Below are positions 1 to 64,000 of a stretch of DNA of 64,000 nucleotides, in pieces (the stretch's first letter is position 1; every line of letters begins with the position of its first letter). The DNA is taken from assembly GCA_030682175.1 (NCBI GenBank), contig JAUXOM010000122.1, positions 1 to 64,000 on the forward strand, given 5' to 3'. The notes under the pieces are model-generated. The model saw only the letters and a list, made by a program, of their open reading frames with translations. It searched no databases and was not told the origin of the DNA. A program made the translations under genes and the position numbers. The stretch is from Rhodocyclaceae bacterium (GTDB taxonomy: Bacteria; Pseudomonadota; Gammaproteobacteria; Burkholderiales; Rhodocyclaceae).

Positions 1-643
1 GCACGGCGGTTTCGGGAATCAACTGCATCAGGCCCTGGGCGTTCTTGTGCGAGACCGCCACCGGATTCAGGTTCGACTCGGTGCGGGCGATGGCCAGCGC
101 CAGCCGCGGATTGATGCCGTATTCAGGCGCCAGGCGCAGCAGCAACTCCGCCATCTGCCGTTGTTTTTCGGTGCCAAATTTGATGTCGCCGATGTCGCTA
201 ATGTCGCCGTGCGGATCAGGCGGCTTGGGTACCTCCATGCACGACGGGGGTTCGGTTGCTGCCGGCCCGACAAAGCGCAGCATCCGCACTGACGGGGCAT
301 GGCCCTGCGCAGCGGCGAGATGAAGAAAGAACGCCGCCAAGGCGTCGTCGCGCGGCATTCCCCGGCCATTGGCATACATCCAGCCCAGGCTGTACTGGGC
401 TTCCGCGTCGCCGGCCCGCGCGGCGTCGCAGTAAAGCTGGATTGCCCGGGCGGGGTCTTTGGCAACGCCTTCGCCGTGCTCGAAGGCACGGGCCTGCTCG
501 CGCAGCACGCGCAACTCATCCTCGCTACGCGGCTCCGCCGCAAAAGTCGGCGCTGGCGGGACGGCGCAAAACAGGAATAGCGCCACCGCAGGCCAAATCC
601 TGCCGCATTGAGATTTTCCGTCCGATCGTCCCATCGTTGCCAT
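1..643 (-). CDS. Lytic transglycosylase (SLT domain, Sel1/TPR-like N-terminal part), 3' end outside window
   Basis: Minus-strand frame from ATG at 643 open to window edge (absent from ORF track because no stop): MATMGRSDGKSQCGRIWPAVALFLFCAVPPAPTFAAEPRSEDELRVLREQARAFEHGEGVAKDPARAIQLYCDAARAGDAEAQYSLGWMYANGRG...EYGINPRLALAIARTESNLNPVAVSHKNAQGLMQLIPETAV; SLT motif and Sel1-like repeat. Confidence 0.85.
   Translation of the reverse strand, partial: MATMGRSDGKSQCGRIWPAVALFLFCAVPPAPTFAAEPRSEDELRVLREQARAFEHGEGVAKDPARAIQLYCDAARAGDAEAQYSLGWMYANGRGMPRDDALAAFFLHLAAAQGHAPSVRMLRFVGPAATEPPSCMEVPKPPDPHGDISDIGDIKFGTEKQRQMAELLLRLAPEYGINPRLALAIARTESNLNPVAVSHKNAQGLMQLIPETAV
543..567 (+). repeat. Dispersed repeat, AAAGTCGGCGCTGGCGGGACGGCGC, exact
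   Basis: Exact consensus copy; encodes AVPPAPTF in transglycosylase signal region. Confidence 0.9.
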
Positions 644-659
644 GATGATTCCGCGAAAC

Positions 660-3431: not shown

Positions 3432-3531
3432 ATGCGGTATGCGTTCTCGCTAAGATAATGAAGAAACATAACCACCCAAGCCGGCTGTGACCGGAAGTTA
3501 TTTGGGTGAGCTATGGCCAATGTAAGCCATG

Positions 3532-18446: not shown

Positions 18447-19655
18447 ATGGCCGATCTTCTCTATCTGGTGCACCGCCTGCCCTACCCGCCCAACAAGGGT
18501 GACAAGGTGCGCTCGTTCAACCTGCTCAGGCATCTGGCAAAAAAGCACCGCGTCCACCTCGGCACCTTCATCGACGATCCGGAAGATGAAGCTTACCTTG
18601 AGAAAGCACGCAGCTATTGCGTCGACATGCATGTTGCCCGTCTCACACCACGGATTGCCAAGCTGCGCAGCCTGCGTGGACTGTTGAGCGGCGAGGCGCT
18701 GTCGCTCCCCTACTACCGCAACGCCGGCCTGCGCGACTGGGTGGCGCGCACCTGCGCCAGCAGTCGCATCGAGCATGCCGTCGTCTTTTCATCGGTGATG
18801 GCCGACTATGTTCCCGACATGCTGCGGCTGCCGACACTGGTGGACTTCGTTGATGTCGATTCGGCCAAGTGGACCCAGTACGCCACCATGCACCGCTGGC
18901 CGCTGTCCTGGCTTTACCGCCGGGAAGGCGAGCGCCTGCTGGCATGGGAGCGCAGCGTGGCGGAGAAGGCGGTCCGGTCGTTCTTCGTCACTGCGGCCGA
19001 GGCCGACATGTTCCGGCGTGCCGCCCCCGCAAGCGCCGACCGTGTCGAAGCCATCGGCAATGGCGTCGACGCCGAATTCTTCTCGCCGGAACACCCTCTG
19101 GCGTCGCCTTTCAGCGCGGATGAAATACCCATCGTGTTCACCGGGGCCATGGACTACTGGCCCAACATCGATGCCGCCATCTGGTTCGCCGGCGCGGTAT
19201 TGCCCCGCCTGCGCCAGCGCATCCCCGCGGCTCGCTTCTACATTGTCGGCCGCAGCCCTGATGCGGCGGTGCAAGCCCTGGCGAACGATGACGCGATTGT
19301 CGTTACCGGTACGGTAGACGACGTGCGGCCGTATCTGCAACATGCCGCAGTGGTCGTCGCGCCGCTGCGGATTGCACGTGGCATTCAGAACAAGGTGCTC
19401 GAAGCCATGGCCATGGCGCGACCGGTGATCGCCTCGACCGCCTGCGCCGGCGCCATCGACGCCGCATGCGGCAGCGAACTGCTCGCCGCCGGGACGCCCG
19501 ATGATTACATCGCCCACATCGACAAGCTGCTTGCCGATCCCGCCCTAGCCGACGCCATTGGCCAGGCCGCGCGCCAGCGCGTGCTTGTCAGTTATAGTTG
19601 GGACGCCCACCTTTCCCGCATCGATCGCTACCTGGCACCCCCGGAGGCCCCATGA
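18447..19655 (+). CDS. TIGR03087-like PEP-CTERM/XrtA system glycosyltransferase
   Basis: MADLLYLVHRLPYPPNKGDKVRSFNLLRHLAKKHRVHLGTFIDDPED; GT4-like C-terminus. Confidence 0.92.
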   Translation: MADLLYLVHRLPYPPNKGDKVRSFNLLRHLAKKHRVHLGTFIDDPEDEAYLEKARSYCVDMHVARLTPRIAKLRSLRGLLSGEALSLPYYRNAGLRDWVARTCASSRIEHAVVFSSVMADYVPDMLRLPTLVDFVDVDSAKWTQYATMHRWPLSWLYRREGERLLAWERSVAEKAVRSFFVTAAEADMFRRAAPASADRVEAIGNGVDAEFFSPEHPLASPFSADEIPIVFTGAMDYWPNIDAAIWFAGAVLPRLRQRIPAARFYIVGRSPDAAVQALANDDAIVVTGTVDDVRPYLQHAAVVVAPLRIARGIQNKVLEAMAMARPVIASTACAGAIDAACGSELLAAGTPDDYIAHIDKLLADPALADAIGQAARQRVLVSYSWDAHLSRIDRYLAPPEAP

Positions 19656-21313
19656 ACGCCGTACCACCAGTGCCGACTTTTGCTTCCGGCCGCGCGCCAG
19701 TCCCACAGGGATCTCCTTCGGTCACGCCGGCCTTTGCCTGGAAGCAGGCGCTTGCCGCGATTGTGCTGGTCGAGCTTGCGCTCATCGCCCTGTATTTCGA
19801 AACGGGACGGGCCATGGTCGACATCTGGACCCACTCCGAAACCTTCAACCACGCCTTTCTGGTACCACCCATCACGCTCTGGCTGATCTGGGAAAAGCGT
19901 CAAGCGCTTGCCCGCGCCGCGCCGCGTCCGACGCTCTGGCTGGCGCTGCCGTTTGTCGGGCTGGCCTTTGCCTGGCTGCTCGGCGATCTCGCCGCCATCA
20001 ATGTGGTCACCCAGTTTGCCTTTGTCGCGATGCTGGTGCTGGCCGTGCCGATGATGATCGGCCTGCCGGCGGCAAAACGCATCGCCTTTCCATTGGGCTT
20101 CCTGTTTTTCGCCGTGCCCTTCGGCGAATTCGCCATGCCGAAATTGATGGACTGGACCGCCACCTTCACCGTCCTCGGTCTGCGCGCTTCGGGCATCCCC
20201 GTTTTTCAGGAGGGGCTGCACTTCGTGATTCCCTCCGGGCGCTGGTCGGTGGTCGAGGCCTGCAGCGGCGTACGCTACCTGATTGCTTCCGTCGTCGTCG
20301 GCACGCTCTACGCCTACATCAACTATCAGTCGCTGCGGCGCCGCCTGATCTTCGTCGGCGTCGCCATCCTGGTGCCGCTGATCGCCAACTGGGTGCGCGC
20401 CTACCTCATCGTCATGCTCGGCCATTTCTCCGGAAACCAAATCGCCGTCGGCGTCGATCACCTGATTTATGGCTGGGTGTTCTTTGGCGTGGTCATCATG
20501 ATCATGTTTGCCATCGGCATGCGCTGGCGCGAACCGGAGGCCGCACTGCCGCCGCCGGCGCCCGACGTGGAGTATCCGGCGGCCGGCAAACTGACGGCCG
20601 CCTTGCTGCTGGCCGCCCTGCTGGCGCTGGGCATTGCGCTCACGCCGCGCGCCGCACTGATCGCCATGGCTGCCGGACCGGCACTGCCCCCGCCCGTGCT
20701 GACGGCGCAAGCGCTTGCCACCGGCGGCTGGCAGGGTGTCGAGACGCCACTGACCGGCTGGCAACCCGCCTTCGCCAACCCGTCGGCCACGCTGAACGCC
20801 ACGCTGACCAAGGATGGCCGGCACGTCGGCGTATTCATCGCTTACTATCAACAACAGAACTATGAACGCAAGCTCATCAGTTCGGAGAATATGCTGGTGA
20901 CGAGCAGTGACAAGGAATGGGCGCTGGTCGGGCGCGATGTACGGCAAATCGCGCTGGCCGGACAAAGCGTGACTGTCCGCGGCGGTAGCCTGCGCAGCCA
21001 GCTCGCCAGCATCGGCGCCGAACCCTTGCGCCTCAAGGTGTGGCACTGGTACTGGATTGACGGACAAATCATCGCCAGCGATCATCTCGGCAAGCTCCGG
21101 CTCGCACTGGCGCGCCTGTCCGGTCGTGGCGACGCCTCCGCCGCTATTTTCGTTTATGCGCCGGAGCCGGACGGCGAGTCCGCCCTGGCCGATTACCTCG
21201 CACACGCGGGCGGCGGCATTGCTGCCGTACTGCATGGCGCCGTACCGCCAGCGCCGACTTTAGGCGCGGGCGGTGCACCAAACAATTCGCCAGCGCCGAC
21301 TTTTACAAAATGA
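19652..21313 (+). CDS. xrtA: Exosortase A (XrtA/EpsH) with EpsI-like C-terminal domain
   Basis: Catalytic Cys VVEACSGVRYLIASVVVG, Arg ANWVRAYLIVMLGH, multi-TM; EpsI-like tail (YYQQQNYERKLISSENML). Confidence 0.95.
   Translation: MNAVPPVPTFASGRAPVPQGSPSVTPAFAWKQALAAIVLVELALIALYFETGRAMVDIWTHSETFNHAFLVPPITLWLIWEKRQALARAAPRPTLWLALPFVGLAFAWLLGDLAAINVVTQFAFVAMLVLAVPMMIGLPAAKRIAFPLGFLFFAVPFGEFAMPKLMDWTATFTVLGLRASGIPVFQEGLHFVIPSGRWSVVEACSGVRYLIASVVVGTLYAYINYQSLRRRLIFVGVAILVPLIANWVRAYLIVMLGHFSGNQIAVGVDHLIYGWVFFGVVIMIMFAIGMRWREPEAALPPPAPDVEYPAAGKLTAALLLAALLALGIALTPRAALIAMAAGPALPPPVLTAQALATGGWQGVETPLTGWQPAFANPSATLNATLTKDGRHVGVFIAYYQQQNYERKLISSENMLVTSSDKEWALVGRDVRQIALAGQSVTVRGGSLRSQLASIGAEPLRLKVWHWYWIDGQIIASDHLGKLRLALARLSGRGDASAAIFVYAPEPDGESALADYLAHAGGGIAAVLHGAVPPAPTLGAGGAPNNSPAPTFTK
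19658..19680 (-). repeat. Dispersed repeat, divergent copy at exosortase start
   Basis: GCCGTACCACCAGTGCCGACTTT, 3 mismatches in 23. Confidence 0.65.
21237..21261 (-). repeat. Dispersed repeat, exosortase 3' end
   Basis: GCGCCGTACCGCCAGCGCCGACTTT, 1 mismatch. Confidence 0.9.
21286..21303 (-). repeat. Dispersed repeat, partial copy at exosortase 3' end
   Basis: TTCGCCAGCGCCGACTTT. Confidence 0.8.
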
Positions 21314-25810: not shown

Positions 25811-27706
25811 ATGTGCGGAATCACCGGAATTTTCGATACCCGAGGCAAGCGCGAGATCGACCGCGCCGTGCTGCACCGGATGAACGAATCGCAGTTTCAT
25901 CGTGGGCCGGACGAGGGCGGCTTGCATGTGGAACCGGGCGTGGGCCTCGGCCACCGGCGGCTCTCCATCATCGACCTGTCCACCGGCCAGCAACCGCTCT
26001 ACAACGAGGACAACAGTGTCTGCGTCGTCTTCAACGGCGAGATCTACAACTACCAGGAACTGATTCCCGAGTTGCAGGCGCTGGGCCACGTTTTCCACAC
26101 GCGCAGCGATACCGAGGTCATCGTCCATGCCTGGGAGGCTTGGGGCGAGGCTTGCGTCGACCGCTTCCGCGGCATGTTCGCCTTCGCGCTTTGGGACCGT
26201 AACCGCGACACCCTGTTCCTCGCCCGCGACCGGCTCGGCGTCAAACCGCTGTTCTACGCGCTGCTCGACGATGGCACTTTCCTGTTCGGCTCGGAACTGA
26301 AATCTATCCTTGCCCATGGCGGCTTGCGGCGCGATATCGATCCCCAGGCGGTCGAGGAATACTTCGCCCTTGGCTATGTCGCCGAGCCGCGTTGCATCTT
26401 CCGCCAGGCCAAAAAGCTGCCGCCGGCCTGCACGCTGAAAGTCGGTCGTGGCGGGACGGCGCTTCCCGAGCCGCGCGAATATTGGGACGTCCGGTTTACG
26501 CTCGATGCACAACTGAGCGTCGAGGAAGCCAGCCATGAACTCGAACGCCGGCTCACCGAATCGATCCGCCTGCGCATGATCTCCGAAGTGCCGCTCGGCG
26601 CTTTCCTTTCCGGCGGCGTCGATTCGAGTGCCGTGGTAGCGATGATGGCCGGTCTGTCGAACGAGCCGGTCAACACCTGCTCCATCTCCTTCGCCGATCC
26701 GGCCTACGACGAGGCCGCCTTCGCGCAGAAAGTTGCCGATCGTTACCAGACCCGGCACTTCGTCGACAGGGTTGAAAGCGACGACTTCGACCTCATCGAT
26801 ACCCTCGCCCGCCTCTACGACGAGCCCTATGCCGACAGCTCGGCCATCCCTACCTACCGGGTTTGCCAGCTGGCGCGCAAGCACGTCACCGTCGCGCTCT
26901 CGGGCGATGGCGGCGACGAGAGCTTCGGCGGCTATCGCCGCTACTGGCTGCACCTGATGGAAGAGAAGATGCGCGCCGCGCTGCCGCTCGGCCTGCGGCG
27001 GCCGCTGTTCGGCACCCTCGGCCGGCTCTACCCGAAAGCCGACTGGGCGCCACGCGTCTTCCGCGCCAAGACCACCTTCGAAGCGCTGGCGCGCAACTCC
27101 GTCGAAGCCTACTTCCACAGCGTTTCGGTCATTCGCAACGGGCAGCGCAACCAGATTTTCAGCGACGCCTTCAAAGCCGAACTGGGCGGCTACAGCGCGC
27201 AGCAGGTGTTCGACCGCCATGCGGCAAAGGCAGGCACCGATGACCCGCTCGCCCTCATCCAGTACATCGATCTGCAAACCTATCTGATCGGCGACATCAA
27301 CACCAAGGTCGACCGGGCCAGCATGGCGCACTCCCTCGAAGTACGTGAGCCGCTGATGGACCATCCGCTGGTCGAGTGGCTGGCCACGCTGCCGACTTCG
27401 CTGAAAATGCGCGGCACCGAGAGCAAGTTCCTGCTCAAGAAAGCGATGGAACCACACCTGCCGCACGACATCATGTATCGGCCGAAGATGGGCTTCGCCG
27501 TGCCACTGGCGCGCTGGTTCCGCGGCCCGCTGCGGCAGCGCGTGCGCGACGATCTGCTGGGCGGACCCATGCTCGAAACCGGCTGGTTCAATCCCGACAC
27601 CATCCGCCAGATCGTCGAGCAGCATGAATCCGGCCGGAGCGACCACAGCACGCCGATCTGGGTGCTGCTGATGTTCGATGCCTTCCTCAGAAACAACGTC
27701 GCATAA
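25811..27706 (+). CDS. asnB: XrtA/PEP-CTERM system amidotransferase (asparagine synthase, glutamine-hydrolysing)
   Basis: MCGITGIFDTRG (N-terminal Cys nucleophile), LSGGVDSSAVVAMM. Confidence 0.93.
   Translation: MCGITGIFDTRGKREIDRAVLHRMNESQFHRGPDEGGLHVEPGVGLGHRRLSIIDLSTGQQPLYNEDNSVCVVFNGEIYNYQELIPELQALGHVFHTRSDTEVIVHAWEAWGEACVDRFRGMFAFALWDRNRDTLFLARDRLGVKPLFYALLDDGTFLFGSELKSILAHGGLRRDIDPQAVEEYFALGYVAEPRCIFRQAKKLPPACTLKVGRGGTALPEPREYWDVRFTLDAQLSVEEASHELERRLTESIRLRMISEVPLGAFLSGGVDSSAVVAMMAGLSNEPVNTCSISFADPAYDEAAFAQKVADRYQTRHFVDRVESDDFDLIDTLARLYDEPYADSSAIPTYRVCQLARKHVTVALSGDGGDESFGGYRRYWLHLMEEKMRAALPLGLRRPLFGTLGRLYPKADWAPRVFRAKTTFEALARNSVEAYFHSVSVIRNGQRNQIFSDAFKAELGGYSAQQVFDRHAAKAGTDDPLALIQYIDLQTYLIGDINTKVDRASMAHSLEVREPLMDHPLVEWLATLPTSLKMRGTESKFLLKKAMEPHLPHDIMYRPKMGFAVPLARWFRGPLRQRVRDDLLGGPMLETGWFNPDTIRQIVEQHESGRSDHSTPIWVLLMFDAFLRNNVA
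26438..26462 (+). repeat. Dispersed repeat, inside asnB
   Basis: AAAGTCGGTCGTGGCGGGACGGCGC, 3 mismatches in 25; encodes KVGRGGTA. Confidence 0.7.
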
Positions 27707-28832: not shown

Positions 28833-28857
28833 AAAGTCGGCGCTGGCGGGACGGCGC
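28833..28857 (+). repeat. Dispersed repeat, exact copy, intergenic after wecB
   Basis: AAAGTCGGCGCTGGCGGGACGGCGC identical to 543-567. Confidence 0.9.
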
Positions 28858-30112: not shown

Positions 30113-31297
30113 ATGATCCGCACGCTCCTCTTCTCCACCCTCTACCCCAACAGCGTGCGGCCCAGCCACGGCATCTTCGTCGAAACGCGCCTGCGCCATC
30201 TGCTGGCGAGCGGAAAAGTCGAAACCCGCGTCGTCGCGCCGGTGCCGTGGTTCCCGTTTCGCCATCCCAAATTCGGCGAATACGCCAAACACGCCGCCGT
30301 GCCGCGCCAGGAAGAACGCAACGGCATCCGCGTCGAACACCCGCGCTACCTGCTGCTGCCCAGGATCGGCATGAACAGCGCCCCCGCCAGCCTGGCCCGT
30401 GCCGGCCTCAAGGCCGCCCGCAAACTGATCGCCGAGGGCTACGACTTCGACCTCATCGACGCCCATTACTTCTACCCCGACGGCGTCGCCGCCACGATCA
30501 TCGGCAAGGCGCTGAACAAACCCGTGGTCATCACCGCGCGCGGCACCGACATCAACCTCATCCCGCAGTACCCGAAACCGAAGCAGATGATCCTGCAAGC
30601 CGCCGATGACTGTGCCGCGATGATCACCGTCTGCGCCGCGCTCAAGGATGCAATAGTCGGCCTTGGCGGGACGGCGGAAAAGATCACCGCGCTGCGCAAC
30701 GGCGTCGACCTCCAACTCTTCCAGCCCGAAGACAAGCCGCAAGCCCGTGCCGCCTTCGGCATGAACGACAAATTCGCCATCGCCTCCGTCGGCCACCTCA
30801 TCGAACGCAAGGGTCACCACCTCGTCATCGAAGCCCTGGCGCAGATTCCCGATGCCGAGCTTTACCTCGTCGGCGGCGGTGAAGAAGATAGCCGCTTGCG
30901 TGCGCTGGCCGATCAACTCGGTATTACCAATCGCGTGCATTTTCTTGGCGCCATGCCGCAAGCCAAATTACGCACTCTCTACAGCGCCGTCGACTGCCTC
31001 GTGCTCGCCTCCAGCCGCGAAGGCTGGGCCAACGTGCTGCTCGAAGCCATGGCCTGCGGCACGCCGGTCGTCGCCACCAATGTCTGGGGCACGCCCGAAG
31101 TCGTTGCCGCCCCCGAGGCCGGCGTGCTCATGGACGAACGCAGCGCCGGCGGCATCGTGCGCGCTGTCGCCCGCCTGCGCGAAGCATTGCCGGCCCGCAG
31201 CGCCACTCGCGCCTATGCAGAACAATTCGGCTGGCAGCCGACGACCGAAGGGCAGTTGGCGCTGTTCCGACGTGTTTTGAGTGCCAATGCGGGTTAA
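30113..31297 (+). CDS. Glycosyltransferase family 4
   Basis: LLFSTLYPNSVRPSHGIFVETRLRHLL; LASSREGWANVLLEAMACGTPVVATNVWGTPEV. Confidence 0.9.
   Translation: MIRTLLFSTLYPNSVRPSHGIFVETRLRHLLASGKVETRVVAPVPWFPFRHPKFGEYAKHAAVPRQEERNGIRVEHPRYLLLPRIGMNSAPASLARAGLKAARKLIAEGYDFDLIDAHYFYPDGVAATIIGKALNKPVVITARGTDINLIPQYPKPKQMILQAADDCAAMITVCAALKDAIVGLGGTAEKITALRNGVDLQLFQPEDKPQARAAFGMNDKFAIASVGHLIERKGHHLVIEALAQIPDAELYLVGGGEEDSRLRALADQLGITNRVHFLGAMPQAKLRTLYSAVDCLVLASSREGWANVLLEAMACGTPVVATNVWGTPEVVAAPEAGVLMDERSAGGIVRAVARLREALPARSATRAYAEQFGWQPTTEGQLALFRRVLSANAG
30653..30677 (+). repeat. Dispersed repeat, divergent copy inside GT4
   Basis: ATAGTCGGCCTTGGCGGGACGGCGG. Confidence 0.6.
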
Positions 31298-32067: not shown

Positions 32068-32100
32068 TCAACTGCAATACAACTGCGGACACGCCCCGCC

Positions 32101-32305
32101 ATGAGCCACGCCTTCCTGTTCGTCCCCGCTGCCAACCAGGCTGAAGCCCCGGGCTTCCAGAAAGGCGTGCGGGCGCTGGGCGACTTCAAGGCCGTGCGGA
32201 TCACGGATACCGCCACATCCACCACGGCCGCCCTCGCGGTGGCACCCGCCGCCAAGGCCTCTGACAAACGCATCGCCCGTTCCGCCGACGGCCAAGTGCG
32301 TGGAA
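32101..32305 (+). pseudogene. Truncated duplicate of the 5' end of the asparagine-synthase-like gene at 33523
   Basis: MSHAFLFVPAANQAEAPGFQKGVRALGDFKAVRITDTATSTTAALAVAPAAKA nearly identical to start of 33523..35364; homology lost after the ...IARSADGQV patch. Confidence 0.85.
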
Positions 32306-33342: not shown

Positions 33343-33522
33343 GATTTAGCAGAATCTATGCTCGCATATGGCATTCAAACACCCCTTCGATTCGCGCACT
33401 CGAGGGCGCTGGATGGACGCGGGTTGCGCTGGTGCTTGAGGTCAATCCCTTACGACAAAGTCAGCCGATACGACTGCGTTTCAATTCTGCCATGCACTAA
33501 TATCCGCCATTGAAACCTACCC

Positions 33523-46129: not shown

Positions 46130-47374
46130 ATGCGCCGTATCCTTATGATCGCCTACCACTTCCCGCCGTTGGCGGGTAGCAGCGGTATTCAGCGGACGCT
46201 TCGTTTTGTGCAGCATCTGCCTTCGTTTGGCTGGGAGCCCTTGGTGCTGACAGTGATGCCACAGGCCTACGAACGAACCAGCGCCGATCTGATGGGTGAT
46301 GTGCCGGCCGGGACGATCGTCGAGCGGGCTTTTGCGCTCGATACGGCTAGGCACCTGGCTGTGAATGGTCGTTATGCAGGTTGGATGGCGCGGCCGGACC
46401 GCTGGCGCAGCTGGCAGTTTGCCGGCGTATGGCAGGGCATGCGCATGATTGAGCGTTACCGGCCGGATGCTATCTGGTCGACCTATCCGATCCCCACGGC
46501 GCATGTGATCAGTTCTGCGCTGCATCGCCGTAGTCGTTTGCCATGGATTGCGGATTTTCGTGATCCGATGGCGCAAGCGGGCTATCCAGCCGATCCCTTG
46601 ACCTGGAAAAGTTTCAAGGCGATCGAAATGAATGCGGTTAGCAATGCGAGCTTCTCCACCTTCACTACACCAAGTGCAGCAGAGGACTACCGTAAGCGGT
46701 ATCCAGAAGCGCGCGAGCGGATCGTCGTGCTGGAAAACGGCTACGACGAAGAGAGTTTTGCTGCCGTCTCGCCAGCGCCGACTTTGGCGCTGAATCCCGG
46801 CGCGATAACGCTTTTGCATAGTGGTATCGTTTATCCGGAGGAGCGTGATCCCACTCAATTGTTTGCGGCGTTGCAGCGGCTGGTAAAGTCGGGGCAACTG
46901 CGCGCGGGAGAGTTGAAAATTCGCTTTCGCGCGCCGGTGCATGACAATCTGCTGCAAACGCTCGCACAGCAGTTTGGTGTGGCGGAGTTCATCGAGATCC
47001 TGCCGCCGCTACCTTACCGCGAGGCACTTCTGGAAATGTTGCGTGCGGATGCTTTGTTGGTCATGCAGGCTGCCAATTGCAACGCGCAGATTCCGGCCAA
47101 GATTTACGAATACTTGCGCGCTGGCCGGCCTATCATTGGGCTGACCGATCCGGCAGGGGATACTGCCGGCGTATTGAGAGATGCCGGCATTGATGCTTTG
47201 GCGCAAATCGATTCCGCCGACGAAATCGCCGCGCTGTTACCTGGATTCATTCGGGCGGTAAAGGAAGGAAGGGCACTACTGGCAGATCGAAATTTTGTTG
47301 CGAAGGCGTCGCGCAGTGGCAGGACGGCCGCGCTGGCGCGGTTGTTGTCGAAATCGATTGAGGGAGCCATTTAA
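46130..47374 (+). CDS. Glycosyltransferase (GT4-like)
   Basis: RRILMIAYHFPPLAGSSGIQRTLRFVQHLPSFGWEPLVLT; IPAKIYEYLRAGRPIIGLTDP. Confidence 0.87.
   Translation: MRRILMIAYHFPPLAGSSGIQRTLRFVQHLPSFGWEPLVLTVMPQAYERTSADLMGDVPAGTIVERAFALDTARHLAVNGRYAGWMARPDRWRSWQFAGVWQGMRMIERYRPDAIWSTYPIPTAHVISSALHRRSRLPWIADFRDPMAQAGYPADPLTWKSFKAIEMNAVSNASFSTFTTPSAAEDYRKRYPEARERIVVLENGYDEESFAAVSPAPTLALNPGAITLLHSGIVYPEERDPTQLFAALQRLVKSGQLRAGELKIRFRAPVHDNLLQTLAQQFGVAEFIEILPPLPYREALLEMLRADALLVMQAANCNAQIPAKIYEYLRAGRPIIGLTDPAGDTAGVLRDAGIDALAQIDSADEIAALLPGFIRAVKEGRALLADRNFVAKASRSGRTAALARLLSKSIEGAI
46763..46785 (-). repeat. Dispersed repeat, inside GT at 46130
   Basis: GCCGTCTCGCCAGCGCCGACTTT, 1 mismatch; encodes AVSPAPTL. 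Confidence 0.88.
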
Positions 47375-51226: not shown

Positions 51227-52342
51227 TTATGCGCGCCATCCCGCCAGCGCCGACTTTGCAGCAGCCTGACGTTCTTCAGTCAACGTTTGCAGGCCATGTT
51301 TCAGCCTTTCGTCCATCATGCCACGGTGGTTGATTGCCTGTGGCACGGCGAGTTCGGATTCCGTATTCAGCTCGATGATCACGGGACCCGAAGGTGTCAG
51401 GGCTACATCCCAATTCTGGATGCCCAAGCCGGGGAAGTGGCGCGTGGCATCTCTGACCAGGACGATGGCGGACTCCCAGTCGGGAAGTCGAAAACCGATC
51501 AGCGGCATGCCCGTGTCGGGGTGCCGCTCGATGGCGCCTTCCGGCCCAATACGACGAATCGCATGGGTAATGACGCCCTGTTGGGTGTCGATGGCGGCCA
51601 GCAGGTTGCCATAGTCGCCATGGGAAAAGTTGTCGAGCATGTTGCGGCCGGTGACGATTTTGAGAAAGGCCGTATGGATGACGCTTTCTTGCCGTGAGAC
51701 GAGGCAGATCATCCGTATGCAGCAAATCGCGGTGCTGCCGGTCAGTTCCTGGATGGCCGGATGGGTTGCGGCGCATTCCTGGAACAGCATGCCCTGAAAG
51801 GGGAGGAACTCGAAGGGAGCGAAGAACTTCCCGAACTCGACCGAGGTGCCATCCAGCAACTGGACATGCGTGCCGTCGAAGCCGGCGAGACCGGAAACGC
51901 CGCGGCCATAACCGGCCGAAATCGGTTTGACGAAAACCGGATAGGTTGTCGAGGCCAGGAAGCTGCGAACCTCGTCGCGGGTACGAAGCAAGATTTCATT
52001 GGCGATTCGCCTGCGGTTGACCGAGTACGTCGCCAAGGGGCGCGGCATGGGGAAGCCCAGCGCATTGAGAATGATGTAGTTGATCAGCTTGTCGTTTGCC
52101 AGCACGCGCGAATGGTCACTGTTCAGGCGGCGGTCGAGTTCGGCGCTGGTGCGCCAGCCGATGAATTCCGCGCGCTTATCCGCGCTGAGTTTCGGATCCC
52201 ACAGGCCGTATTCGAAATATTCGGAGATGCCGATGCGTTGCTGGCCCAGCCGTAAAGCGAGTGCTTCTCGCAGTTGTCGGCTGACGGGTTTCCCGGTCAG
52301 GGCCTTGACGGCCTTTGCGGCGGTCAGGAAATCCATGGTCAT
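51227..52342 (-). CDS. ATP-grasp family protein (sugar-transfer-associated type)
   Basis: YPVFVKPISAGYGRGVSGL; GIQNWDVALTPSGPVIIELNTES. Confidence 0.8.
   Translation of the reverse strand: MTMDFLTAAKAVKALTGKPVSRQLREALALRLGQQRIGISEYFEYGLWDPKLSADKRAEFIGWRTSAELDRRLNSDHSRVLANDKLINYIILNALGFPMPRPLATYSVNRRRIANEILLRTRDEVRSFLASTTYPVFVKPISAGYGRGVSGLAGFDGTHVQLLDGTSVEFGKFFAPFEFLPFQGMLFQECAATHPAIQELTGSTAICCIRMICLVSRQESVIHTAFLKIVTGRNMLDNFSHGDYGNLLAAIDTQQGVITHAIRRIGPEGAIERHPDTGMPLIGFRLPDWESAIVLVRDATRHFPGLGIQNWDVALTPSGPVIIELNTESELAVPQAINHRGMMDERLKHGLQTLTEERQAAAKSALAGWRA
51233..51257 (-). repeat. Dispersed repeat, ATP-grasp 3' end
   Basis: GCGCCATCCCGCCAGCGCCGACTTT, 1 mismatch. Confidence 0.9.
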
Positions 52343-53541
52343 GAGTAGTTATGTGCCGTCTCGCCAGCGCCGACTTTCGTAATCGCCGCGATCATCCAGT
52401 CCATGTCGCGGCCAGTTAGCGACTGGTGGCAGGGCAGGTGCAGCAGGTGCAGGCGATAGTCGCTGGCGGTGGCGCAGCCCGAGACTGCGCTGCTGTCCCA
52501 GCGGAAGATGGGCACGCCCAGTTGCTTGAGCCGGGTGAAGTGCGGTTCGGGGTTGTCGATGATCAGCGGGAACATGTAGGGGATGCAACCTTCGGGCAGT
52601 TCGGGGTAGAGCGGCCGACAGTATGGCAGATTCATGGTCGCCATAGCCCATTGGCGATAGTGGTCGCGCCGCCGCTGGGCGATGCTGTCGATGTCGGGGT
52701 GGCGATAGAGCATGCGCGAAAAACGCAGTGCCGTGTAGCCTTCGTGGTCCGGTCGATAATCTGCCGAGGTGCCAGCGAGTTCGTGGCGGTCGATGGCGGC
52801 GGAGTGCCGTGCTGCGGCGATGGCGGCCAGTTCGGCGTCGAGGTGGGCTGGGGCGAGCGCAGCCCGGTTGTTGCGCTGTTCGGCGGCTTTCGACCAGGCG
52901 AAGTGCATGCCGCGCAGTTCGTTGACCACGGCGGGGGCGCGCGTTGAAAGACTCTTCAGGCGACCGGCATCGCGGGCGTAGAGCAGGCCCCCATCGGGAC
53001 TGGGCAGAAACTTGTAGGGGCTGCTGACGACGAATTCGCCATGGCCGCCGATGCCGGCCGGGCGGTGGTGTTCGCAGAAGAAGGCATGCGAGCCGTCTTC
53101 GATCAGGGTAATGCCACGCTCGATGCACCAGGCAGCCAGCGCGGCAAAGTCTTGCGCGATGCCGAAAAAGTGGGTGGCGAGCAGCGCCTTGACTGGCGCT
53201 GGCGATTGGTTGATCAGCGCGTCGAGCGCGGCAAGGTTGGGCGAGAGGTTGGTGTGCAGCGGGTAGAGCAGCACGTTGCCACCGAGGGCGAGGGCCGGGT
53301 CGAGCATGGTGCGACAGTGGTAGGCGGGAGCAAGCAGGGTGCTGCCCGGACCGATGCCGGAAAGGCGATAGGCTTCGCGCAGGGCATAGCGCCCGCGAGC
53401 GAAATGGCGGAAGTGGCTGGTGGGCGCCCAGGGCTGAGCCGTGTTGAGTGCAAGGCCATCGAGCCCCGTCGGCAGCAGCGGCACGCGCGGTTTGGGAAAG
53501 CCGCAGGGCGAGGGGTCGAAGATCAGAGTGTCGAGGAGCAC
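52339..53541 (-). CDS. DegT/DnrJ/EryC1-like PLP-dependent protein
   Basis: LLAPAYHCRTMLDPALALGGNVLLYPL; LIEDGSHAF; VSSPYKFLPSPDGGLLY (Lys candidate). Confidence 0.8.
   Translation of the reverse strand: MLLDTLIFDPSPCGFPKPRVPLLPTGLDGLALNTAQPWAPTSHFRHFARGRYALREAYRLSGIGPGSTLLAPAYHCRTMLDPALALGGNVLLYPLHTNLSPNLAALDALINQSPAPVKALLATHFFGIAQDFAALAAWCIERGITLIEDGSHAFFCEHHRPAGIGGHGEFVVSSPYKFLPSPDGGLLYARDAGRLKSLSTRAPAVVNELRGMHFAWSKAAEQRNNRAALAPAHLDAELAAIAAARHSAAIDRHELAGTSADYRPDHEGYTALRFSRMLYRHPDIDSIAQRRRDHYRQWAMATMNLPYCRPLYPELPEGCIPYMFPLIIDNPEPHFTRLKQLGVPIFRWDSSAVSGCATASDYRLHLLHLPCHQSLTGRDMDWMIAAITKVGAGETAHNYS
52353..52377 (-). repeat. Dispersed repeat, DegT-like gene 3' end
   Basis: GTGCCGTCTCGCCAGCGCCGACTTT. 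Confidence 0.88.
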
Positions 53542-53544: not shown

Positions 53545-54525
53545 CTAGGGCTGATTGGTTTGCCGGAGATCGGGTGTAAAGATACCAAGACCGACTGTCC
53601 GGTTGTTCTCGACCTGGATTGTCGGCGAGGCAGGAAACTTGTCTTCATGTATGCGCAGGAACCAGCCGCCGGGGAGCAAGTCGCTGATCAGCGTGTTGTC
53701 TTCCAGCGTGAGTGTATTTTCCGGCCAGACGTTGCCTTCGGCACCGTAGGAGATGAGTACGGGGTTCTGGGTTTTCGCGCTTTGGCTGACGGTGTTGCCG
53801 ACGATGTGCGCGATGCCGCCATTGGGTAGGTCGATTTCGTAGGAGGCTTCGCCGTCCGGGCCGTCGACGATGTGGTTGTCGCGAAGGATGCTTTGCCGTG
53901 CGCGCGACTTGACCAGGTGGCCGCGATAGCCTTTCTCGAAGCGGCTGCCGGTGATGGTGACTTTGGCGATCCGACCGACGTAGAGCAGATGCGGCAACGA
54001 GTGCATCTGGCGCGGCGCGTCGGCGAAGCGGCTGTTTCCGATGACGAGTTCCGCGGTGCTGACGTTGCCGGTGAGGATGCCCATCTGATTGTCGATGAAG
54101 GTGCAGTCGTGGATGCTGAGCTTGCCGCTTTCGAAGCGGATGCCCGCACCGTTGCCGGCCGGCACGCGGGCACCCCGAAATTCGATGTTCTCGATGCGGA
54201 AATCGCCGTTGCGGATGACCCAGATGGCTTTGCCTTCGGCGCTTTTGCCGTCGGCGATGAGTACGGGGCGCGGGCCGATGCCGCGGATGACGAGCTGCTT
54301 TTGCTGCCAGACGGCTACATCGCCGCGGTATTCGCCGGACAGGATTTCGACGGTGTCACCGTCCTTGGCCAGGCGGGCGGCTTCGGCGATGCGGGTGATC
54401 GCCTCGCCGGGGCCGACGCGGAGTGTGGCGGCCTCGGCGAGGGAGATGCAAATCGCCAAAAGGAGTGCCAGAAGGATGCTGGGGGCCGTCCTGTCAGCGC
54501 CGAGTTTTGTGCGGCACGCAGTCAT
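53545..54525 (-). CDS. Exported right-handed parallel beta-helix protein
   Basis: Signal segment; LRVGPGEAITRIAEAARLAKDGDTVEILSGEY; repeated beta-helix rungs. Confidence 0.82.
   Translation of the reverse strand: MTACRTKLGADRTAPSILLALLLAICISLAEAATLRVGPGEAITRIAEAARLAKDGDTVEILSGEYRGDVAVWQQKQLVIRGIGPRPVLIADGKSAEGKAIWVIRNGDFRIENIEFRGARVPAGNGAGIRFESGKLSIHDCTFIDNQMGILTGNVSTAELVIGNSRFADAPRQMHSLPHLLYVGRIAKVTITGSRFEKGYRGHLVKSRARQSILRDNHIVDGPDGEASYEIDLPNGGIAHIVGNTVSQSAKTQNPVLISYGAEGNVWPENTLTLEDNTLISDLLPGGWFLRIHEDKFPASPTIQVENNRTVGLGIFTPDLRQTNQP
54484..54508 (-). repeat. Dispersed repeat, beta-helix gene 5' end
   Basis: GGCCGTCCTGTCAGCGCCGAGTTTT. Confidence 0.75.
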
Positions 54526-55241: not shown

Positions 55242-55267
55242 GTGCCGTCCCGTCAGCGCCTAGTTTT
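55242..55267 (-). repeat. Dispersed repeat, intergenic
   Basis: GTGCCGTCCCGTCAGCGCCTAGTTTT. Confidence 0.78.
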
Positions 55268-55301: not shown

Positions 55302-55365
55302 CAAAGAACCGTGGTCTGTCCCCGTTTTCCGCTCAAAGAACCGTGGTCTGTCCCCGTTTTCCGCT
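55302..55365. repeat. Perfect tandem duplication of 32-bp unit CAAAGAACCGTGGTCTGTCCCCGTTTTCCGCT
   Basis: Two identical adjacent units 55302-55333 and 55334-55365; decayed third relative near 55591-55618. Confidence 0.9.
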
Positions 55366-55511: not shown

Positions 55512-55536
55512 GTGCAGTCTTGCCAGCGCCGACTTT
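55512..55536 (-). repeat. Dispersed repeat, intergenic
   Basis: GTGCAGTCTTGCCAGCGCCGACTTT. Confidence 0.8.
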
Positions 55537-55632: not shown

Positions 55633-56883
55633 TCAACGTGAAAGTGTTTCGATTCGGATCGCTTCCAGGTGCAGTGCAGTCATGTGGTAGCCGTCGGGCT
55701 GTCGATCGGGGCAACTGCCTTTGCGGCAATCGGATAGTGCCAGGTTGTGCCAACCGCCATTCTGATTGTCGAGAAACTCCATGCGGATGAATTCGGTTTG
55801 CTGAGTCACCCGTCCCCAGAGGTCGCTGCGGCCACGTATGGCAGCATGATGTATGAGCGCGCGCAGTGCTTCCGCCTGTTGCCACCAGCCTCGTTGGCGC
55901 CTGACTTCCCCTTCCGGGGTAATCGCGGTGATTGTGCCTTGTTCTCCTTTTTCGAATCCATTAGTGATGGCGTAGTTGAGCAGCCGGTCGGCGACACCTG
56001 CGAAGATCGGGTTGAGGCCGGCTTCGCTCGCGGCACTGAACAGGTACGCCCATTCGAACTGATGGCCGATGTCGATGCGCCCACCGCGTGCGCCGGGCAA
56101 GGGGCGCCATTGCTCGTCGTAGAGTTCCGGTATACGGGCGGTACCGTCGGGCAGCCCTTCGAGCAGTCGGTGGGTGACGAATCTGCCGATCGATTCGGCA
56201 CCCTCGAACGCCTCGCGCGAACCGCTGGTTTGGTTGAGTGCGAGCAGGGCTTCGAAGAGATGCATGATCGGATTCTGCGAATTGTCGAATCGGGTTTGGC
56301 TGAAATTACGGTTTGTGCCGGCGCGAAAGCCGCCATGTGCATCGGCATAGCGCAGGCGGATCTCGCTCCAGGTCTGCAAGGCGGCATCGAGATAGCGCTT
56401 GTCCTGCGTTGCGCGGTAGGCATGCGCGAGCGCGAAGATGACGAAGGCCTGGCTGTAGAGCCGCTTGTTGTCATTCTTGGGCTTGCCGTCGGGGCCGACG
56501 GCTTCGAACCAACCGCCATGCAACGGGTCGCGGTAATGGCGGAGCAGGAAATCGGTACCGAGCTTGACTTGTTCGAGGTAGGCGAGCCTGGCGGCTAGGT
56601 CGTAGCCTGCGGCCATGAGGTAGATGCCACGTGCCTGGCCGACGATGTCGCCGGGCTGTTGGTCGATCACCTGCCAGTCACGCGTGACGGCGCTGTTGAA
56701 GAATCCGTTGGCGGTCGGCAGCACCTTGAGCCAGCGTTCGAGGTGATCCTTTTCGAGGGTCTGGCGGTGCCAGTCACCATTGATGCGCGTGCGGATGTCG
56801 TGGTCGTTGCCGCAGGCGGCCAGCAGGACAGCGGCAATGAGCAGTCTGAACAGGAAGCGGAGGGGCATGTTGTTTCTAATCAT
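55633..56883 (-). CDS. AGE-family epimerase/isomerase-like lipoprotein
   Basis: Lipobox LLAACGND; FETL-type alpha/alpha toroid (RLYSQAFVIFALAHAYRATQDKRYLDAAL; GGRIDIGHQFEWAYLF). Confidence 0.75.
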   Translation of the reverse strand: MIRNNMPLRFLFRLLIAAVLLAACGNDHDIRTRINGDWHRQTLEKDHLERWLKVLPTANGFFNSAVTRDWQVIDQQPGDIVGQARGIYLMAAGYDLAARLAYLEQVKLGTDFLLRHYRDPLHGGWFEAVGPDGKPKNDNKRLYSQAFVIFALAHAYRATQDKRYLDAALQTWSEIRLRYADAHGGFRAGTNRNFSQTRFDNSQNPIMHLFEALLALNQTSGSREAFEGAESIGRFVTHRLLEGLPDGTARIPELYDEQWRPLPGARGGRIDIGHQFEWAYLFSAASEAGLNPIFAGVADRLLNYAITNGFEKGEQGTITAITPEGEVRRQRGWWQQAEALRALIHHAAIRGRSDLWGRVTQQTEFIRMEFLDNQNGGWHNLALSDCRKGSCPDRQPDGYHMTALHLEAIRIETLSR

Positions 56884-59270
56884 CCCGCCTTGCGTCCCTG
56901 GATGGCAAGTAGCAGCATGAGGAAGAACAGGAAGGCCACACGTGGCGCATCCAGCAGGCTGTCGAAAAGGCCGACGACCAGAAATCCGGCGATGCCGGCG
57001 GCCAAGGCGGGCGCGCCTGGATGATGGGATCGGACACCTCCGAACGTTCGCAATGCCGCTACCGCGACGAGGGCCATGAAGGCAGCGAGTCCGAGCGCGC
57101 CGTGTTCGAACAGCACATGGAGGAACATGTTCTTCATGTGCCAGGGCATGTGGTGGTGATCGCTGGTGAAGAACCAGCGCGCCATTTCGTCCGAAAAGTC
57201 GCCGTTGGCGAGAATCTGACGACCATGCGGATCGCTGAGTGAAAGCTTGTCGATATCAACGCGCTTGCCGGAGTTTTCGAGGGCCAGGGAAAAGACGATG
57301 AATTGCGGCGCATACCATGCACCCCCGGAGAGTTGGCGACCGTTGAACTCCAGTTTCAGGTGCTGCCAGTCGCCATTGCCGTTGATGGCGATCTGCCGTC
57401 CCGAACAGGCTTCAGCATAGAGCAGGTGCTTGGAGCAAAGGCTGAAGCCGAGCGTGACCTTGTCCTGGCTGCGCGCATTGAATTCAAGCTGGTAGCGTCC
57501 TGCGGGGACGGGGGAGACGCGTTGGGAAATGCGCAGCACTTCTCCGAAACCGATCTGGTAACGCGGCCCCGAGAGCGCCAAGAAGTTGTTCTGATTTTCC
57601 TGCGTGAGCTTGTAGCTGCCGGGGAATTCGTTGCCGGGCGCACCGAAGAAGAAGGATGCCGGGAAACGCCCGAGGCCCTTGCCGAACAACCAGTCCCCTG
57701 GTGTCTGAAGAATATCCAGGCCGGCTTGCCAGTGCTGCAGCCGTCCCTTGAAATCGCGCTCGCTGGTCGAGAAACGATCGCCCATATAGGCACCGCCGCT
57801 GAAAATCGCGACCATGGCCGCGAGCGACATCGCCCCGGCGAAGGCAATGCCCTGGCTGCGCCAACCCGCTGGCCAAACAGTCTGCTTCGAATGGATGCCC
57901 CAGATGGCGAACGCAGCCAGGATTGCAAGCGCGGTCGTCATGTCGATGAGCGCTGATGTGCCGCCCCAGTGGTTGGCGATCAGGGCGGCTGCAAACGGCA
58001 GCGCCAGTGTGCCTGACAAGGCTACGGCTCGGAGGTTGTCCGCGCCGGATTTGAAGCTGAAAAGGAGTGCGACGAGTGCCGCCAGAAAGATCGTGGCGTA
58101 GGACCCGTAACTGCCTTTGCCATACAACCATGTAAAAGCGAAGGCTGCGAGGATCAAAGGAATGGCAATGGCGATGGCAGCTGCCCAGAGTCTGCAGGTG
58201 AGGGATCGGGCGAATTCCATCGTCAACATGAACAGACCGAGACAGCCGAGCAGAGCAAGCGTGGCGCGGTAACCACCGTGGCGGAATACCAGGAACGCAA
58301 GTCCGGCGACGGCGATCATGGCGACGAGGCCAAGGATGATTCCCTTGCTGCGCGTGGCGCCTGTTCTTGATGACGGGTTTTTGGCGTTCAGAAGAAATGC
58401 CATGAGGGCAAGGGATATCACCATGGCGAGATACACGCCCCGCGAGAAGGTTGTCAGGCTGGCGTAGATGCCAAGTCCGAGTATCAGCCCGGCTGGCAGC
58501 AATTGGCCGACGTATTGGCTGCGCAGCATCAGCAATACGGCGAAAGGCAGGGTCAGGACGAGAAATCCGTCGAGGGCCGCGCCGCCAACGTGCATTTCCC
58601 AGAACAATGCGGTGGTGCGGTAATCGGCCGAGAAATTCAGCAGGCCGGGGAAGGCAATGCGTTCCCAGAGGGCAGCAAGGGAAACGGTGGCCAGTCCCAG
58701 CACCATGCCCCAGCCGAGATAGGCAACGCCACGGTCGTCGAGTCGGGAATGAGTGCGGCCGATAAGGGGGGCGAACAGCGCCGCGAGCAGGAAGCTTTTG
58801 GCCAGGCGCAGACTGTTCATCGAGCCTTCGTAACCCTGGAACCAGCCGAAGACGAATCCGCCCGCATCGGCAATGCCGCGCGCGAACGAAACCGCGAGGA
58901 ACAGCAGGTAAAGCGCGACGAGCAGGAGCAACAGTTTCGAGGGGCGAGCCGGAGCCGATACGCCCGGCGTCCAGCCGTGGCGCAGCCAGGCGCCCGCGGC
59001 CGCGCCCAGCACGAGAATGTCGAACTCCTCGAATGTCAGCCAGCCGGTCCAGGGCGCCAGGTCGACGATGGGCAGCAGGGCAGGCAACAGCAGCAGCCAG
59101 GCATGGTCGAAGCGCAGGCAGATGATAAAGGCTGCCAAGCAACCCGCAATCATTGCGATCGACGATAGCGGGTGATGCGCGGCGATGAACAAGCCGGTCG
59201 ATAGCGTGGCGAGCGCCACGACGGTGGAGGTGATGGCGGGTGCCGTCCCGCCAGCGCCGACTTTCATCAT
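56880..59270 (-). CDS. O-antigen ligase/polymerase-like membrane protein with large soluble insertion
   Basis: Many TM helices; LTTFSRGVYLAMVISL; ~150 aa soluble segment (YKLTQENQNNFLALSGP...RVDIDKLSLSDPHGRQILANGDF) before MKNMFLHVLFEHGALGL. Confidence 0.82.
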   Translation of the reverse strand: MMKVGAGGTAPAITSTVVALATLSTGLFIAAHHPLSSIAMIAGCLAAFIICLRFDHAWLLLLPALLPIVDLAPWTGWLTFEEFDILVLGAAAGAWLRHGWTPGVSAPARPSKLLLLLVALYLLFLAVSFARGIADAGGFVFGWFQGYEGSMNSLRLAKSFLLAALFAPLIGRTHSRLDDRGVAYLGWGMVLGLATVSLAALWERIAFPGLLNFSADYRTTALFWEMHVGGAALDGFLVLTLPFAVLLMLRSQYVGQLLPAGLILGLGIYASLTTFSRGVYLAMVISLALMAFLLNAKNPSSRTGATRSKGIILGLVAMIAVAGLAFLVFRHGGYRATLALLGCLGLFMLTMEFARSLTCRLWAAAIAIAIPLILAAFAFTWLYGKGSYGSYATIFLAALVALLFSFKSGADNLRAVALSGTLALPFAAALIANHWGGTSALIDMTTALAILAAFAIWGIHSKQTVWPAGWRSQGIAFAGAMSLAAMVAIFSGGAYMGDRFSTSERDFKGRLQHWQAGLDILQTPGDWLFGKGLGRFPASFFFGAPGNEFPGSYKLTQENQNNFLALSGPRYQIGFGEVLRISQRVSPVPAGRYQLEFNARSQDKVTLGFSLCSKHLLYAEACSGRQIAINGNGDWQHLKLEFNGRQLSGGAWYAPQFIVFSLALENSGKRVDIDKLSLSDPHGRQILANGDFSDEMARWFFTSDHHHMPWHMKNMFLHVLFEHGALGLAAFMALVAVAALRTFGGVRSHHPGAPALAAGIAGFLVVGLFDSLLDAPRVAFLFFLMLLLAIQGRKAG
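59240..59264 (-). repeat. Dispersed repeat, 5' end of ligase-like gene
   Basis: GTGCCGTCCCGCCAGCGCCGACTTT; encodes KVGAGGTA after MM. Confidence 0.9.
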
Positions 59271-60302: not shown

Positions 60303-60414
60303 TCCGCTACATCATGCTACGCCAGACTGAGATTGGCAAGCAACTCGCAGATTCTGAATGATTGAAAATTCTGCAATGCACGAAGAATTTTCAACATTGA
60401 ATGGGGGGCTGTGT

Positions 60415-62064: not shown

Positions 62065-62182
62065 GCGCGGAGGTTACCGGAGTCAATGGTTGATCGGATT
62101 ATAGGGGGCCAGCCAGGAAATTGCCGCGCGACCCGATCAATTGCGCGGGTGCGCTTGCAATGATATTCTTACCAGGTATTAC

Positions 62183-62841: not shown

Positions 62842-63667
62842 TTGCAAGCCACTTCAAGCAGGCAGACGACACGGCATCGCGCCACTCCGCGCAAGAAAAT
62901 GTGTGATCCGCTTCCGCCACGTCGACGCGCGTCAGGTCTGGACGGTCGAGCAGGCCGCGCCAGCTTTGGACGCTGGCGGAGTATTCGAGAAACTCTTTCG
63001 CAGTGTAGTCGTTGCCGCTGAGGATCAGCAGCACCCGGCCCGGAAAATCCCGCCAGCCGCGCGCCATGCGTTCCTGGAAACCAAGGGTCTGTTCGGTCTG
63101 CGCCCTTGCCTGACCCAGCTTGCGCAGCAACTCGGCAAAGGACTGGATGGGGTTCAGCCGGCCGGAGAGCAGCTTGCGCCAGAACTCCGCTTGCAGCAGG
63201 CGCTGTGCATAGTAGTGCTTGACCTGGGTTTTTGCCAGCGAGGCTGGCGAGCGCACCCAGGGGTTGAGCAGGCAGAGGCCGGCGATGCGCGGGTCGCGCG
63301 TTTCTTCGCAGTAGAGCAGCGCTGCGGCGGCGGCATCGCAGAGGCCCCAGAGGATGATCCTGGTTGCGCCTGGACAGGCGGTTTGCAGGGCATCGATGGC
63401 GGCGCGGATGTCGGGCGTGACGGCCTCGAAATCGCGTTTGTCGCCTGTACTGTCGCCCATGCCACGCACATCGAAACGCAGCGTGGGATAACCGGCGGCC
63501 AGAGCGCGGGACAGCAGTACGAATTGCCGGTGGCTGCCGACGCGGGTTTGCGGCCCGCCGACGATGATGACGATGCCGACATCGGCAGCCTGTTCCGGCC
63601 GCGCGAGAATGCCGAACAGGGTTTCGTTCTCACAGTCGAAGTGGATGGCTGCTTCGGCGCAGTTCAT
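62813..63667 (-). CDS. Exosortase A system-associated hydrolase 1 (alpha/beta hydrolase)
   Basis: MNCAEAAIHFDCENETLFGILARPEQAADVGIVIIVGGPQTRVGSHRQFVLLSRALAAGYPTLRFDVRGMGDS. Confidence 0.87.
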   Translation of the reverse strand: MNCAEAAIHFDCENETLFGILARPEQAADVGIVIIVGGPQTRVGSHRQFVLLSRALAAGYPTLRFDVRGMGDSTGDKRDFEAVTPDIRAAIDALQTACPGATRIILWGLCDAAAAALLYCEETRDPRIAGLCLLNPWVRSPASLAKTQVKHYYAQRLLQAEFWRKLLSGRLNPIQSFAELLRKLGQARAQTEQTLGFQERMARGWRDFPGRVLLILSGNDYTAKEFLEYSASVQSWRGLLDRPDLTRVDVAEADHTFSCAEWRDAVSSACLKWLATTSEQRPPA

Positions 63668-64000
63668 GAGTTGAGCGCCGCCAGGCTTGCGTCGAGCAGC
63701 GCGGGCGCTTCCTCGATTTCGACGGTCTGCCAGAAAGTCGGCGCTGGCAGGACGGCGCTGTGAAGCTGAAATCCGGCGGCCTGCCATTGCTCGATGCGCT
63801 TGAGAGAGGCTGGCGCGAGCGTGGCTTCCGGTCGCGCGGAAAGTTCGAACCAGACGATGCGACCGGCTGGCGCGGGCGGCAGCAGCTCGGCGGCTTCCAG
63901 ATCGCGGGCCAGTTCGGCGGACAGTGTGTAGCCAGCGATTTCCACCGGCTGACCGCTGGCGAGCTGTTGTTTGAGCGTGGCCATCACGCCCTTGCTCTCG
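63664..64000 (-). CDS. C-terminal part of probable exosortase A system-associated hydrolase 2, 5' end outside window
   Basis: VMATLKQQLASGQPVEIAGYTLSAELARDLEAAELL...FWQTVEIEEAPALLDASLAAL; 4-bp overlap with hydrolase 1. Confidence 0.6.
   Translation of the reverse strand, partial: ESKGVMATLKQQLASGQPVEIAGYTLSAELARDLEAAELLPPAPAGRIVWFELSARPEATLAPASLKRIEQWQAAGFQLHSAVLPAPTFWQTVEIEEAPALLDASLAALNS
63734..63758 (+). repeat. Dispersed repeat, inside hydrolase 2 C-terminus
   Basis: AAAGTCGGCGCTGGCAGGACGGCGC, 1 mismatch. Confidence 0.9.

Follow-up and report, generated by a model that had tools for sequence, protein, structure and literature searches.

A word of about 24 bp was found to be over-represented throughout the genomes of part of the Rhodocyclaceae, with near-equal numbers on the two strands, maintenance in place at orthologous sites, divergence into dialects and restriction to this one family. 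Judging by analogy with the known systems, the motif probably serves part of the Rhodocyclaceae as a DNA uptake signal of the DUS/USS type. It also appears likely, though slightly less so, that a third bacterial family tags its own DNA at uptake, with a word of ~24 bp that is twice as long as any described and is spelt in four or more clearly distinct genus dialects, having evolved independently of those in Neisseria and Haemophilus and in free-living environmental bacteria.

Copies of the Motif in the Window

A total of 14 copies of the 23-bp core AAAGTCGGCGCTGGCGGGACGGC were detected at ≤3 mismatches on both strands of the window (the whole 64-kb stretch of DNA analyzed), as listed in Table 1, while dinucleotide-preserving shuffles of the window give an expectation of zero copies. 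The first-pass annotation had claimed about 15 copies of a 25-mer, AAAGTCGGCGCTGGCGGGACGGCGC; the repeat is real, and the count with the 23-bp core at ≤3 mismatches is 14. The two identical copies that it had reported at 543-567 and 28833-28857 are present, as are its near copies at 21237, 51233, 52353, 59240 and 63734, and that at 46763 carries one mismatch over the 23-bp core but three over the 25-mer. Copies at 19658, 26438, 30653, 54485, 55244 and 55514 were missing from the earlier list. Among the weaker relatives it had suspected, the one near 29511 corresponds to a four-mismatch match at 29513, but no match within six mismatches lies at 31717, 47304 or 62369. Its description of both orientations and of genic as well as intergenic copies was borne out in the window, and the view that the motif forms no classic hairpin agrees with a DNA folding z-score of -0.47 for the motif.

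The window harbors an XrtA/PEP-CTERM exopolysaccharide locus, with PrsK, PrsT and an XrtA-associated ATPase and deacetylase. A link between the repeat and this exosortase/EPS locus had been implied, but the 14 copies of the window stand against 10.8 expected from the genome density (P = 0.20), and the location is incidental. Other repeats were also observed here. Two perfect copies of a 32-bp unit, CAAAGAACCGTGGTCTGTCCCCGTTTTCCGCT, stand in tandem between genes at 55302-55365, beside two motif copies; we take this unit to be reminiscent of RAYT-associated repeats, and no further copy of its core was found in any of the loci retrieved. A direct repeat of 161 bp, 95% identical, occupies 32099-32259 and 33521-33681, and a second copy of the first ~50 codons of gene 33523-35364 thus lies 1.4 kb upstream, apparently the remnant of a gene.

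Table 1. Copies of the 23-bp core in the window and their surroundings.
Feature	Position	Strand	Context
Exact copy	543..565	+	Antisense, 5' part of ORF 2-586(-); reads AVPPAPTF
Copy, 3 mismatches	19658..19680	-	Antisense, codon 3 of gene 19652-21313(+)
Copy, 1 mismatch	21239..21261	-	Antisense, near 3' end of gene 19652-21313(+)
Partial copy	21281-21303		Adjoins the 21239..21261 copy; 16/23 bases match, divergent after
Copy, 3 mismatches	26438..26460	+	In frame, KVGRGGTA; asparagine-synthase-type amidotransferase gene 25811-27706
Exact copy	28833..28855	+	Intergenic; stop of epimerase gene 27731-28825 lies 7 bp before
Copy, 3 mismatches	30653..30675	+	In frame, IVGLGGTA; glycosyltransferase gene 30113-31297
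Copy, 1 mismatch	46763..46785	-	Antisense within gene 46130-47374(+), AVSPAPTL
Copy, 1 mismatch	51235..51257	-	Final codons of ATP-grasp gene 51227-52342(-)
Copy, 1 mismatch	52355..52377	-	Final codons of aminotransferase gene 52339-53541(-), KVGAGETA
Copy, 3 mismatches	54485..54507	-	Intergenic by gene calls; start region of 53545-54525
Copy, 3 mismatches	55244..55266	-	Intergenic
Copy, 3 mismatches	55514..55536	-	Intergenic
Exact 23-bp copy	59242..59264	-	Codon 3 of ORF 56880-59270(-), KVGAGGTA
Copy, 1 mismatch	63734..63756	+	Antisense in ORF 63664-63999(-)

Genome-Wide Abundance and Distribution in the Family

The genome of the window (G000; 3.49 Mb, 153 contigs) harbors 590 motif copies, 304 forward and 286 reverse, and the reversed-pattern control gave 0 copies, so that one short word is over-represented genome-wide and the concern, raised in the first-pass annotation, that its frequency might match composition does not apply. 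Within the genus, 18 of 19 genomes contain 311-728 copies at ≤3 mismatches, with near-equal strands and a reversed-pattern control of 0-1, and one further member of 87% completeness (G006) has zero copies at the same threshold. The density in carriers ranges from 110 to 230 copies per Mb.

The family was scanned with a relaxed skeleton, AAAGTCNNNNCNNGCGNNACGNC, and ~175-750 matches were obtained in members of g1, g2, g9, g11, g62, g70, g88 and g90, with intermediate counts of 84-101 in G064 (g47) and G086 (g69), while the remaining family genera reach single digits to ~17, close to the reversed-pattern controls. Elsewhere in the class, 368 additional genomes gave a highest count of 13, and its other families are at background. 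Named matches are mostly Rhodocyclaceae MAGs, including records of Sulfuritalea, Sulfurisoma, Propionivibrio and Azonexus. The repeat had been thought species-specific, which is contradicted by its occurrence, in dialects, in 18 of 19 genomes of the genus and in at least ten genera of the family. When over-represented 12-mers were counted de novo, without any motif as input, this word or a dialect form of it came out on top in G000, G017, G028 and G110, and nothing comparable emerged in G098, G083, G067, G006 and G108. In G028 (L383-L387), the words AAGAAGAAGCCTGCGGCAAAG are over-represented besides the motif dialect and are probably a Lys/Ala/Pro-rich coding repeat. A different abundant repeat, palindromic, of REP type and TGTGGGAGCTTGCTGTGGGAGC-like, was observed in G023, a non-carrier of the same family (L396-L399).

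Exact copies of the motif are contained in 40 viral contigs, which fits prophages residing in carriers. A plasmid or phage origin was dropped, as a 31-mer compared by BLAST with plasmids and phages had chance matches only. One viral contig (L152, 883-2237) harbors five copies with similar flanks, spaced ~316 to 385 bp apart, within a repeated stretch. A Mu-like prophage at a contig edge of the window's genome (C25:1-20000, L246), indicated by portal, terminase, Mu F and Mu transposase C-terminal matches and by a GC content of 0.54-0.56 vs 0.61, contains no copies, yet the adjoining nusA-infB, ftsH, carAB region is also without them, and the case is an anecdote.

Spelling, Dialects and Phylogeny

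The motif of this organism reads (R)AAAGTCGGCGCTGGCGGGACGGCG, and the skeleton common to at least ten carrier genera is AAAGTC....C..GCG..ACG.C; this invariance is partly by construction, because the pattern behind some of the dialect listings already fixes the skeleton, the variable positions being unaffected. The dialects are AAAGTCAGTCCCnGCGnnACGGC in g11 (G028), AAAGTCGACGCTGG(C/G)GnnACG(G/C)C in g69 (G086) and AAAGTCAGTCCTGGCGGCACGCC in g90 (G107), while AAAGTCGGTGCTGG.. and AAAGTCGGTGCTGGCG(G/A)GACGGC are frequent in g9 (G026). Even two species of the window's genus differ at the ends, with ...ACGGCG in G000 vs ...ACGGCAC in G017: position 23 is G in 71% of the G000 copies and A in 92% of the G017 copies, and C follows position 23 in 71% of the latter. 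The motif has diverged into genus- and even species-level dialects, which are uniform within genomes, and singly mismatched copies are commoner than perfect ones.

A ComEC tree of 31 genomes revealed three changes between carrier and non-carrier vs 9.2 in shuffles, with most of the non-carriers in one group. The tree was midpoint-rooted, and the rows of G028 and G114 look misread (branches of 4-6 changes per column) and were disregarded; with this rooting and these two rows, one early origin with a few losses is the simplest reading. Dialects and carriers are consistent with the phylogeny. The ComEC of G006 sits on a long branch (0.83 vs about 0.3) beside carriers of its own genus, and this genome has one GspH/FimT-type gene, vs two in four other genus members checked.

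Most of the 51 family genomes examined encode ComEC (PF03772, 50 genomes), a ComP-type pilin (PF16732 ComP_DUS, 47 genomes) and a GspH/FimT-type protein (PF12019 GspH, 46 genomes). Their presence is the same in carriers and non-carriers and thus not discriminating, so that none of these genes is singled out as the receptor. A search for PF11773 (ComGE) gave no matches. First candidates for the receptor would be a second GspH/FimT-like gene (G000 C61:34202-34474, G017 C1:608342-608623) and the fimT/pilE pair at G017 C1:1712027-1712847.

Genomic Context, Strand and Reading Frame

The 88 copies in 463 kb of G000 comprise 49 within genes, two at edges and 37 between genes, the gene edges being approximate because a simple hexamer-based finder supplied the gene calls. 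The intergenic share is 42% vs 9% expected in G000 (P = 2e-16) and 14% vs 8% in G017 (P = 0.08), where the excess is small, and intergenic copies keep no fixed distance from starts or stops. Intragenic copies were observed on both gene strands and in several frames (KVGAGGTA, KSALAGR, AVPPAPT), with frame 0 sense (KVGAGGTA) and frame 0 antisense (AVPPAPT) dominant and the W/R-coding sense frame rarest (4 of 54), which agrees with a signal at the DNA level that is filtered by what proteins tolerate. Since the copies use several reading frames and also occupy intergenic sites, they are not explained by protein conservation, an outcome that the first-pass annotation had allowed for, and the same observations speak against a coding repeat or peptide. 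A promoter-type reading was likewise rejected, as the sigma-54 spacing, judged by eye, does not fit.

Along the complete chromosome of G017, forward copies per tenth number 16, 13, 10, 8, 7, 14, 5, 7, 8 and 12, an even distribution (P = 0.24) with no bias to origin, terminus or replication strand, and the idea of replichore polarity was discarded. Closely spaced inverted pairs are rare, with only two pairs <400 bp apart in the 463 kb. Two exact inverted copies ~30 bp apart at L110 5030-5107 are followed by a T run, giving a terminator-like hairpin; such inverted pairs have been described for DUS/USS.

Maintenance at Orthologous Sites

The complete chromosome of G017 is collinear with G002 and 88% identical to it over 189.5 kb aligned. 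The comparison took in 25 copies from G017 and 21 from G002, many at shared loci, and just one of these 46 copies has a gap of ≥15 bp opposite it. Differences per site in the motif amount to 0.134 and 0.087 in this alignment, vs 0.23 and 0.204 over the 60 bases that flank it and 0.119 at random sites, and motif positions 2, 4-9 and 19-22 differ at a rate of 0.00-0.04. Alignment examples contain an intact motif within diverged flanks, and other motifs that arose through substitutions where the alignment has no gap.

Copies of the window were also followed individually. The 52355 copy uses the same codons in four species (the window's genome, G002, G017 and G004), the 51235 copy is private to the window's genome, the orthologues of G002, G017 and G004 being without it, and the 54485 copy has a related copy at the equivalent place in G017. 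PDB homologues of the glycosyltransferase align across the 30653 copy without a gap, and a PDB homologue of the amidotransferase aligns across the 26438 copy with only a 3-residue gap just after the motif, so that neither of these intragenic copies shows an eight-residue insertion. The motif is a non-mobile DNA word that keeps its orthologous positions within fast-changing surroundings, and the gap-poor orthologous alignments contradict the "small element" moving by insertion that had been proposed. By the same logic as applied here, Redfield et al. showed that USS are not insertions (PMC1626085), and Treangen et al. reported 97% vs 85% identity for DUS, which are conserved beyond the average within permissive surroundings (PMC2397512).

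Proposed Function and Alternative Explanations

By analogy, a word that is genome-wide, on both strands, genic as well as intergenic, conserved in permissive spots and spelt in phylogeny-following dialects carries the signature of DUS/USS. Membership of this class is assigned by sequence pattern, and a DUS/USS-like working of the motif is presumed. Counting against it are competence and pilin genes that fail to tell carriers from non-carriers, the greater length and lower density of the motif relative to classical DUS/USS, the excess of singly mismatched copies and the rarity of close inverted pairs. A putative receptor, a surface component of the type IV pilus/competence machinery and most likely a minor (pseudo)pilin, would bind the motif on free DNA and thereby give preference to DNA from the same lineage in uptake by the ComEC and RecA route. 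Alleles that match the motif better might then be fixed more often through transformation, by selection or molecular drive, and copies would therefore arise in place by mutation or recombination and persist where the protein or the spacer tolerates them.

The first-pass annotation had offered four readings, among which the evidence favors the uptake-signal-like sequence and disfavors those of a species-specific or mobile element and of an RNA-processing site. The main rival is an intracellular DNA-protein site, such as a nucleoid organizer, a condensin loader or a recombination/repair hotspot, that co-evolves with its protein. We regard this as unlikely, though a long, well-conserved and even two-strand motif, kept in place and drifting into dialects, would be expected from it as well. 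The lack of origin, terminus or strand bias in G017 argues against polar or regional sites like KOPS, Chi, matS or parS, and chromosome-organizing sites are not known to reach this length or to change dialect between genera. For the nucleoid- or chromosome-organizing site of the first-pass annotation, the even forward copies leave the polarity or ori/ter version unsupported, and a general nucleoid-binding or recombination role is the version that may still apply. The reading as an uptake signal is preferred because dialects together with conserved sites in permissive surroundings are a joint pattern not known outside uptake sequences.

The other explanations are far less probable. A transcription or RNA signal (terminator, promoter or RNA processing site) could draw on the intergenic enrichment in G000 (42%) and on the occasional inverted pair with a T run that resembles a terminator (L110), yet more than half of the copies lie within genes on either strand, which makes an RNA-processing or transcription site very unlikely; moreover, the window has no Rfam match, close pairs number only two in 463 kb and no fixed distance to starts or stops exists. 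Hundreds of near-identical copies, a patchy genus distribution and the copies in phage contigs would suit a short element that moved or was copied and so spread by insertion (like a MITE or REP, or as an insertion-sequence scar), but this is more improbable still, as motif-less orthologous sites align without a 23-bp gap, intragenic copies lack the eight residues that an insertion would add relative to PDB homologues, there is no hairpin and dialects are uniform within genomes. Bases outside the motif are not common to the copies, so no longer element surrounds it. Coincidence of codon usage, composition or protein conservation is hardly credible: the genome is GC-rich and the in-frame peptide KVGAGGTA frequent, but the reversed or shuffled motif has zero copies, several frames and intergenic sites are occupied, and 368 other genomes of the class are at background.

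If the motif is an uptake signal, environmental Betaproteobacteria would supply a third and apparently independent case, suggesting that sequence-tagged uptake is not peculiar to host-associated bacteria, and their dialects would form a new series in which co-variation could point to the receptor. Natural competence would then be predicted in lineages from wastewater, groundwater and sediment (Sulfuritalea, Propionivibrio and their relatives), which are without genetic tools.

Comparison with Known Systems

Neisseriaceae and Pasteurellaceae are the sole families known with motif-based discrimination, with words of ~9-12 nt (a 2025 paper, PMC12616744). The core of our motif was absent from the literature searched, which covers few subscription journals or preprints, and no paper in it ties uptake sequences to Rhodocyclaceae or its genera; a previously undescribed uptake-signal system in Rhodocyclaceae is, by analogy, the best explanation.

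REP/BIME elements, which are mobilized by RAYT transposases, are likewise short dispersed genomic repeats with hundreds of copies, whereas the Rhodocyclaceae motif is non-palindromic, common inside genes, without insertion gaps and divided into dialects. The USS of Pasteurellaceae, AAGTGCGGT or ACAAGCGGT plus AT-rich flanks (PMC1626085, PMC12616744), resemble the motif in being dispersed, strand-symmetric, non-inserted, stable at orthologous sites and spelt in family dialects. The Rhodocyclaceae motif also starts with AAAGT and contains CGG, a likeness that may be chance. Unlike USS, it has no AT-rich flanking tracts, is GC-rich throughout and has a consensus over 24 positions, and Pasteurellaceae are Gammaproteobacteria proper. 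The USS/DUS cores follow a very strict consensus (PMC1626085), whereas singly mismatched copies outnumber perfect ones here, a comparison that concerns cores of 9-12 bp.

The DUS of Neisseriaceae are 10-12 bp long, with ComP as receptor and eight dialects (PMC3630211, PMC2397512), and some Neisseriaceae genera have no DUS at all (PMC3630211). The Rhodocyclaceae motif, from a different family of Betaproteobacteria, differs in its length (about 24 vs 10-12 bp), in its density (110-230 vs about 1000 copies per Mb), in its skeleton (AAAGTC....C..GCG..ACG.C vs CTG) and in its receptor, which is putative here and ComP for DUS; it is thus twice as long as, and several times sparser than, the classical DUS/USS. 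Nevertheless, both words are genome-wide, on both strands, genic and intergenic, conserved beyond their surroundings and placed where change is permitted, and both have phylogeny-following dialects around an invariant inner skeleton, in families of which some genera are without the word.
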